Of a stretch of 64,000 bases of DNA, positions 2,853-41,340 are shown piece after piece; positions within the stretch are counted from its first letter, which is position 1, and every line of letters starts with the position of its first letter. The translations under genes and the position numbers were made by a program. The notes beneath the pieces were generated by a model, which made no database searches, was not told the DNA's origin, and was given only the letters and a program-made list of their open reading frames with translations. Origin of the DNA: Hyphomicrobium sp. LHD-15 (GTDB lineage: Bacteria; Pseudomonadota; Alphaproteobacteria; Rhizobiales; Hyphomicrobiaceae); NCBI RefSeq assembly GCF_031157355.1, contig NZ_JAVIFT010000001.1:186001-250000 (forward strand), written 5' to 3'.

Positions 2853-3123
2853 CTAGGTTGTGAACTCACTATGGCTGGTGCAGTGATGAGCCAAAGCGAG
2901 CCAAGGGCTAGGAAAAGCGCGCAGGTCGATGCCGTCGCATCGGACAAGCGGTTTGACGACGCCATTGGCTCGCTTTGGCTCACCCCGCAGGGGCGCGGTT
3001 CTTTTCCGCCTCAGGTTCGTCGCGAGACCTTGCAAACCATCGAGGTTTGCGGCGGCCTCGCTCCTGCCAGCGACGCAAAATCCCTCGCGTCAATGCACTA
3101 GCCATAGTGAGTTCACAGCCTAG
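2853..3123. repeat. ~271-bp structured intergenic repeat, copy 1
   Basis: The ends are inverted: CTAGGTTGTGAACTCACTAT at the left pairs with the right end, which reads as CTAGGCTGTGAACTCACTAT on the other strand. The outer stem is about 34 bp with 31 Watson-Crick pairs. Directly inside it lies an 18-bp perfect stem (2887-2904 with 2965-2982). A further stem joins 3022-3029 to 3054-3061 and encloses the hairpin 3032-3038/3044-3050. CCCCGCAGGGG follows the second stem and can form a small hairpin. A second copy in the same orientation lies at 41069-41340, and differences between copies are compensated in the stems. It sits between the DUF5330-like gene and sufE. The peptides encoded across it are judged spurious. 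Confidence 0.9.
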
Positions 3124-41068: not shown

Positions 41069-41340
41069 CTAGGCTGTGAACTCACTATGGATGGTGCAGT
41101 GATGATCCCAATCAAGCCAAGGGCTAGGAAAAGTGCGCCGCGCGATGCCGTCGCATCGGGCAAGCGCTTTGACGACGCCATTGGCTTGATTGGGATCACC
41201 CCGCAGGGGCGCGGTCCTTTTTGCCCCGCTGGTTCGTCGCAAGACCTTGCAAACCACCGAGGTTTACTGCGGTCTTGCTCCTGCCAGCGATGCAAAAGTC
41301 CTCGCGTCAATGCGCCATCCATAATGGGTTCACAGCCTAG
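41069..41340. repeat. ~272-bp structured intergenic repeat, copy 2
   Basis: Same orientation and ends as the copy at 2853-3123 (CTAGGCTGTGAACTCACTAT at the left, its complement at the right). The inner stem 41103-41120 with 41181-41198 is perfect over 18 bp although four of its pairs differ from copy 1. The stem 41239-41246 with 41271-41278 is perfect here. It lies directly upstream of the LysR gene and ahead of the TadG-like gene, so it could affect the promoter of either. Confidence 0.9.

Follow-up and report, generated by a model that had tools for sequence, protein, structure and literature searches.

The window, a stretch of 64,000 nucleotides from Hyphomicrobium sp. LHD-15 (genome G000), contains two copies of an intergenic element on the plus strand, located at positions 2853 to 3123 (271 bp) and 41069 to 41340 (272 bp). 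Both carry CTAG at each end, as had been claimed in a sequence-only reading of this DNA, and the second copy adjoins a gene for a LysR-type regulator. The element lacks a transposase gene and is too short to hold one. The first copy, delimited by sequence, BLAST against its own genome, and folding, begins with the left terminal inverted repeat and flanking CTAG (2853 to 2886, the left arm of an outer stem) and ends with the right terminal inverted repeat and its CTAG (3090 to 3123), both assigned from sequence and stem pairing. The interior starts with stem A, whose left arm TGAGCCAAAGCGAGCCAA (2887 to 2904) and right arm TTGGCTCGCTTTGGCTCA (2965 to 2982), identified by sequence and pairing count, enclose a structured 60-nt loop (2905 to 2964). 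This loop holds the motif of a hairpin type designated M in sense, with AGGA at 2910 to 2913 and GACG at 2955 to 2958. A mini-hairpin, CCCC-GCA-GGGG, follows with a GNA triloop (2983 to 2993; sequence and folding). Hairpin C (2994 to 3089) lies on the minus strand, where motif M is again in sense (GGCAGGAGC...GCGACGAACC, 3014 to 3068). The second copy is built alike, with the stem A arms TGATCCCAATCAAGCCAA (41103 to 41120) and TTGGCTTGATTGGGATCA (41181 to 41198), the mini-hairpin CCCCGCAGGGG (41199 to 41209), a minus-strand hairpin C with M in sense on that strand (41210 to 41306), and the right terminal inverted repeat (41307 to 41340); these parts were assigned on the same grounds.

The 18-bp arms of stem A were paired at 18/18 positions both for TGAGCCAAAGCGAGCCAA/TTGGCTCGCTTTGGCTCA and for TGATCCCAATCAAGCCAA/TTGGCTTGATTGGGATCA, and the four differences that had been read between the copies were found on each side, every one of them matched in the opposite arm. 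The reported change of a second stem from GCGAG/CTCGC to GCAAG/CTTGC was also present, as was the replacement of a C-G pair by an A-T pair in the outer stem. The two G-T wobbles per copy described for the outer stem were recovered, but this stem additionally contains real mismatches that the reading had missed (1 transversion in the first copy, 1 A-C and 1 transversion in the second). An A-C mismatch is also found in the second stem of the first copy. Single-strand folding gave energies of -165.8 kcal/mol for the first copy and -168.2 kcal/mol for the second, compared to shuffle means of -101.33 and -98.57 (z of -12.35 and -13.47), and 0/200 shuffles of each copy were as stable. Searches of the window against Rfam at gathering and permissive thresholds returned only a tRNA, with no match at the element up to an E value of 1; eight related loci yielded two matches, both under the gathering score.

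The element is a member of a dispersed multicopy family. BLAST against its own genome identified five full-length places, including that of the query itself, and the matches of at least 200 bases besides copy 1 were 76 to 94% identical. The same search also returned stumps, a copy truncated at a contig end, and a diverged relative whose terminal repeat is a different one (L007). When 100 genomes, the element's own included, were searched by BLAST with the element, 6 were matched. For hairpin C, 13 copies were used to build a covariance model (R1). At an E value of 1e-3, it had matches in 4 of 103 genomes of the bacterial family, namely, 6 in G000, 20 in G006, 13 in G020, and 4 in G030; the search filters were strict, and truncated copies in G003 that were detected by BLAST gave no R1 match. 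The distribution of the copies across genomes is patchy. G006, a genome of the same genus, contains many copies in addition to 49-bp stumps made solely of the two terminal repeats. Stumps of about 50 bp with the two terminal repeats alone are found at L049 and L059 (G006) and at L021/L072 (G000). Class-wide, a terminal-repeat pattern matched 4 of 385 genomes. A pattern scan of contigs delivered 9 loci, with three useful Sphingomonadales loci among them; the element was not visible at the three Nitrosomonas loci and the one Anaerolineales locus. BLAST against plasmids gave no match for the window element, L080, or L204 as queries, and two short matches outside Alphaproteobacteria, at the query edge, for L206. 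A description of the family was not found in a literature search that left subscription journals and ISfinder outside its scope.

The comparison of occupied and empty sites suggested along with the first description could be carried out at two places. At the sufE locus, the upstream gene was found by blastn in seven loci of the same genus (L237 to L243), and the element was absent from 7/7. Next to the LysR gene, the intergenic copies of G000 and G006 lie about 11 to 13 bp apart, and each genome is empty at the other's insertion point. The sole close empty site, that of G006 in the LysR region, reads CTCG instead of CTAG; thus, a target duplication is not proved. Among the copies of G000 and G006, 20 of 23 showed TA directly outside the GG...CC ends on both sides. 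The flank scripts each resolved part of the 23 copies (the first one 7, 6 of them with TA; the second one 16 with TA), and the tally of 20 consists of these 16, two more by script (G006_j and G006_n), and two by eye (G006_c and G006_m); G006_f, G006_l, and G000_e were counted as copies without a TA flank. A single TA or CTAG was common to adjacent element ends at L104/L105 (G400) and at L223 (a plasmid of Novosphingobium sp. RL4), as if a second element had inserted at the edge of the first one. The multicopy nature, the site polymorphism, and the IS5-like, TA-flanked ends described below indicate a non-autonomous transposon of the MITE type rather than a gene fixed at its site. From the letters alone, the element had been proposed to be a structured RNA, a non-autonomous mobile element with hairpin ends, or the two at once. 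The mobile-element half of this proposal is well supported by the many copies, the presence or absence at individual sites, the ends, and the flanks; any function of the fold may lie in RNA or in single-stranded DNA.

The terminal repeats link the family to IS5 elements. When plasmids were searched by blastn with a 42-bp end from G006, 9 records matched, 7 of which were examined. IS5-family elements of Methylobacterium (L084) and Mesorhizobium (L086), both with an annotated "IS5 family transposase," terminate in the sequence CTAGGTCGTGAACTCATAA, and so does one of Novosphingobium PP1Y (L085), recognized by reading frames that are present without annotation. The second end resembles the first at 17/25 bases 859 bp away in L084, at 16/25 bases 1201 bp away in L086, and at 17/25 at 1122 bp in L085. 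A Rhizobium locus (L087) has an adjoining IS5 transposase and a second end with 15/25 bases alike, and L083 and L089 showed a second end weaker than 15/25 and no annotated transposase. In Sphingopyxis indica (L088), the matched end belongs to another MITE of about 277 bp, beside an IS5 element with different ends. The copies in G400 have the ends TAGGCCGTAAACTCATAA and TTATGAGTCTGCGGCCTA, and 8 of 10 end matches pair over 856 bp; one TA is common to a tandem pair of these elements. The frames of the G400 element match DUF4096, DDE_Tnp_1, and NCBIfam IS5_3, the last above its cutoff. Likeness of the terminal repeats to IS5 is closest in the CTAGGTCGTGAACTCATAA subfamily and amounts to 12 to 13 bases for the window's own GGYTGTGAACTCA. 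Relatives of the matching transposase were not found in G000, G006, G003, and G020 at an E value of 1e-3, and G000 contains no match to DDE_Tnp_1 (PF01609). The partner transposase of the window subfamily is therefore absent today or was never resident, and we infer its type from the 12 to 13 shared end bases; a resident transposase is not essential for a relic MITE. The sole DDE_Tnp_1 match in G006 (L073, 910 to 1992) is of the IS5_4 type, and its element has ends like CAGGCTGTTGA with CTAA on both sides, unlike the ends of these MITEs. L135, also from G006, carries the singleton terminal repeat GGCACCAAACCCCCCTCAGG; its differences from relatives are mostly matched at both ends, which makes it a good case for arm-to-arm copying.

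M is an imperfect hairpin with the internal loop NAGGA/GACGNN, in the order helix 1, 5′ NAGGA, helix 2, tip, 3′ GACGNN, and helix 1′. In G000 and G006, both internal hairpins are of this build, hairpin A in sense and hairpin C reversed. An interior of two oppositely oriented M copies was found in the window lineage and in two other families (f15 and f10), and M is present at least once in elements from four families of the order and from Sphingomonadales. The paired AGGA/GACG motif was present at 41 distinct sites in the first locus set (about 3 of them apparently by chance, as judged by eye), compared to 7 sites for the next best of 72 letter permutations; in later loci, it was present at 13, compared to at most 2 for permutations. 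These counts rest partly on loci found by searches that required the motif. With simple patterns, the 6 copies from G000 showed AGGA in 4 A hairpins and 6 C hairpins, and the 17 copies from G006 showed it in 15 and 16, respectively. Among the 13 copies of G020, only 2 A hairpins and 0 C hairpins had the exact AGGA; hairpin C of this genome mostly has AGAA or similar at the 5′ motif, with GACG..CC kept in 10. The GNA loop of the mini-hairpin was present in 17/23 copies of G000 and G006 versus 1/13 copies of G020. Several hairpin positions harbor a nested palindrome of 24 to 30 bp, of the TCATGCCGGAGGCGTGCTTCCAGCACGA type, which as judged by eye frequently sits at TTC|GA or beside the GACG motif (L004, L005, L040, L041/L140, L063/L138, L131, L133, L137, L139, L142 to L144, and L146). 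This palindrome resembles two CGTC-tagged REPs joined as a dimer, and its insertion sites become visible when copies that have it are set beside copies that lack it.

Outside the window lineage, an order-wide M pattern matched 52 of 397 genomes, most of the matches looking coding or unpaired by eye, and its reversed control gave many matches too. Six paired-looking loci (L203 to L208) were fetched, and L208 failed as an M element on closer look. In L203, L204, and L207 (f15 and f10), both hairpins carry the motif; since the second hairpin lay outside the search pattern, these loci provide independent support for the M pair. In L205 and L206 (f34), the motif was confirmed only in the hairpin that the pattern had found. 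A motif-free structural scan, which was too strict, gave 1 match. Twelve Sphingomonad elements were fetched by similarity or ends (L078 to L080, L088, L210 to L213, L218, L219, L221, and L223). AGGA/GACG was present in one hairpin in 10 of them, L210 and L212 having a changed letter, and the exact motif was missing from the second hairpin. R1 nevertheless had a match to each of the two L088 hairpins, one per strand (E of 2e-6 and 1.8e-4; filters off, 15 loci). The same interior is combined with terminal repeats of the GGTCGTAAACTCATAAA type in L088, L210, and L218 and of the GGGTCAGGACCCATTA type in L211, L212, L213, and L221, and G068 contains a single M with a third end type (L031 and L035). 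The G068 loci L026, L031, and L035 are MITE-like with the ends GAGCCTGTTTCAAAAGTCGG, and L026 holds part of an M hairpin. Across families and two orders, the flanking helices change yet stay mostly paired, and the unpaired motif recurs.

Since two copies alone cannot demonstrate selection on a fold, 34 copies of module C were examined (matches at an E value of 1e-6 from 35 loci; L122 was dropped). Aligned to R1, 92.6% of the cells were paired and 20 of 30 pairs showed two-sided changes. Covariation reached 0.275, compared to 0.132 ± 0.008 for shuffled and at most 0.083 for slid alignments; as the alignment was fitted to the model structure and the copies are related, independence is overstated. 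Stem pairing thus covaries above chance on a structure-fitted alignment. For stem A, 28 of 36 copies were kept (at least 12/18 matching), and 25 of these entered a subfamily test. The 5 copies of G000 had 5 two-sided positions, all 5 compensated (0.33 expected by chance), four of these being changes of the window's second copy. The subfamily G006z (6 copies, one of them from G000) had 4 two-sided positions, 4 compensated (0.78 expected), and 11 one-sided changes. In the old copies of G020 (6 copies), the two arms changed independently of each other, with 2 positions two-sided and 0 compensated (2.52 expected); G006x (5 copies) had 0 two-sided positions, all 6 changes being one-sided, and G006y (3 copies) had 0 two-sided and 1 one-sided. 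Differences between lineages are therefore compensated, private changes are mostly not, and old copies decay. The statement that compensated pairs imply a maintained fold holds at most for the lineage of the element, but not for the arms of G020 and G006x, where changes were uncompensated. In addition, hairpin A had an inverted loop in 2 of the 21 copies that could be assigned (15 of 36 could not) and in one G003 copy from outside that set (G000_e, G020_m, and G003_a).

The ratio of G-T to A-C mismatches, expected to tell selection on an RNA from a cause at the DNA level, gave a mixed picture. G-T and A-C mismatches stood at 23:19 in stem A, at 37:30 in the terminal stem (33 of 36 copies kept, with at least 18 aligned pairs), and in module C at 33:31 without two near-fixed columns and 91:31 with them. 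Eight inner columns of module C, read in the M sense, gave 37:4 (28:0 for G000/G006 and 5:4 for G020). A ratio of 39:7 in a hand-chosen set is biased because G-T was counted as paired; symmetric scoring yielded 83:53 in helix 1 and 48:61 inside. By lineage, the extremes for helix 1 were 23:2 (Sphingomonads) and 2:12 (hairpin C of G020). Stems and lineages thus disagree on a preference for G-U over A-C, with opposite trends by lineage.

We consider it fairly probable (roughly 0.72) that the window element is a non-autonomous IS5-type transposon, a MITE, whose M hairpins would be kept by template switching and perhaps by selection and which decays after insertion. An IS5-family transposase acting in trans, from an element not now in the genome, would recognize the ends GGYYGTGAACTCA. 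As suggested by ends, flanks, and relatives, the unit of about 271 bp would be inserted at TA, mostly within CTAG. Its interior would consist of two imperfect M hairpins in opposite orientation around a tiny hairpin. Owing to this orientation, each DNA strand, and a transcript in either direction, holds one M in sense, and the inverted pairing renders the element symmetrical in both strand and transcription direction. In the active lineage, arm-to-arm template switching would keep the arms paired and also invert loops, and selection for a folded single strand may preserve the unpaired NAGGA/GACGNN. An inserted copy would be left alone and then decay. The simplest account is that template switching contributes to keeping the hairpins of an IS5-type MITE paired and that M is kept in active lineages for a reason that needs a folded single strand. 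Pure template switching should erase an unpaired motif, so that something else must keep it. Among the findings counted against the IS5-type MITE account were the match of only 15 to 17/25 at the second end of the plasmid IS5 elements and the rarity of the exact AGGA in G020. Like the MITEs of the IS5 family (IS5_3/DUF4096 transposases, the IS427 group), the element is short, gene free, and dispersed, with TA or CTAG flanks and terminal inverted repeats resembling those of autonomous IS5 elements. Unlike them, it contains imperfect hairpins with a shared motif in place of an evident transposase remnant, and these M hairpins are combined with terminal repeats of several dissimilar kinds. Palindromic intergenic repeats of Hyphomicrobiales also include the rhizobial RIME and Brucella Bru-RS, which are shorter; the likeness concerns their general description.

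The hairpins could also be a mere by-product of palindrome correction in a MITE, with M being functionless, which we regard as possible but doubtful. Template switching can keep perfect inverted repeats (PMC8794818), and arm homogenization together with spacer inversion, its reported mark at inverted arms (PMC8604942, PMC8794818), fits the multibase compensated changes and the three inverted loops; the near parity of G-T and A-C in three tests (23:19, 37:30, and 33:31) and the mostly degenerate 5′ motif of G020 also favor this reading. However, the unpaired motif persists in many modules of four families and in Sphingomonadales, where homogenization would tend to pair it, and wobbles are one-sided in inner module C (37:4) and Sphingomonad helix 1 (23:2), although many of these pairs are inherited in common. 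Template-switch hairpins are described for RNA genes and yeast coding repeats, unlike the transposon found here, and the accessible text of PMC8794818 and PMC8604942 includes no transposon case with a conserved unpaired motif. A bolder, tentative reading is that M acts as a functional folded RNA or single-stranded DNA, with the inverted pair giving either strand one working copy. The M interior would then be an independent selfish or service module that changed terminal repeats and transposases and spread through Hyphomicrobiales and Sphingomonadales. The scarcity of the exact motif in G020 and its restriction to one hairpin of the Sphingomonad elements make this reading somewhat less probable; if it were right, the M interior might be a structured passenger of a new class among bacterial transposons.

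Two further explanations appear far less probable. Movement as single-stranded DNA by a Y1 (RAYT-like) transposase, with M as the CGTC-tagged palindrome of a REP/BIME-type element, is improbable, even if parts of the structure recall it. CGTC- and GTAG-tagged REPs and BIMEs are palindromic, often paired, and common in Alphaproteobacteria, where CGTC-tagged REPs prevail and seem to have no dedicated transposase (PMC3733652). CGTC, the antisense of GACG, directly precedes the hairpin when M is read antisense, the two hairpins of opposite orientation resemble a BIME, and CGTC-like hairpin dimers are nested in several copies. However, REPs are units of 20 to 40 bp without long terminal repeats, and their CGTC stems start almost always with complementary A-T pairs (PMC3733652), whereas the present element is longer, has long terminal repeats in common with DDE-type IS5 elements, and mostly has G-C beside the motif (29 modules: G-C, 24; A-T, 4; G-T, 1). 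We consider it slightly less probable still that a structured RNA or regulatory element selected by the host happens to be repeated. The strong fold, the covariation, and the conserved internal loop would agree with such an element, but its absence at the sufE locus in 7/7 same-genus genomes, the IS-type ends, the uncompensated decay in G020, and the lack of an Rfam match at the element argue against it. On the preferred reading, an IS5-type MITE with M hairpins, the fold is a property of the element that arises partly by mutation and that may be under selection in M.

It is common to regard compensatory changes as proving that an RNA is functional; in the present family, they are found in a mobile palindrome, the old copies of which are decaying. 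The family therefore lends itself as a natural test of the shares that template switching and selection have in covariation. The element itself is probably a small, gene-less piece of jumping DNA that was moved by a common type of bacterial transposase, while its hairpin motif, which recurs in distant Alphaproteobacteria, may have a job of its own. Should M prove functional, it would show MITEs to be capable of carrying a conserved folded module, independent of orientation, across families of transposases.
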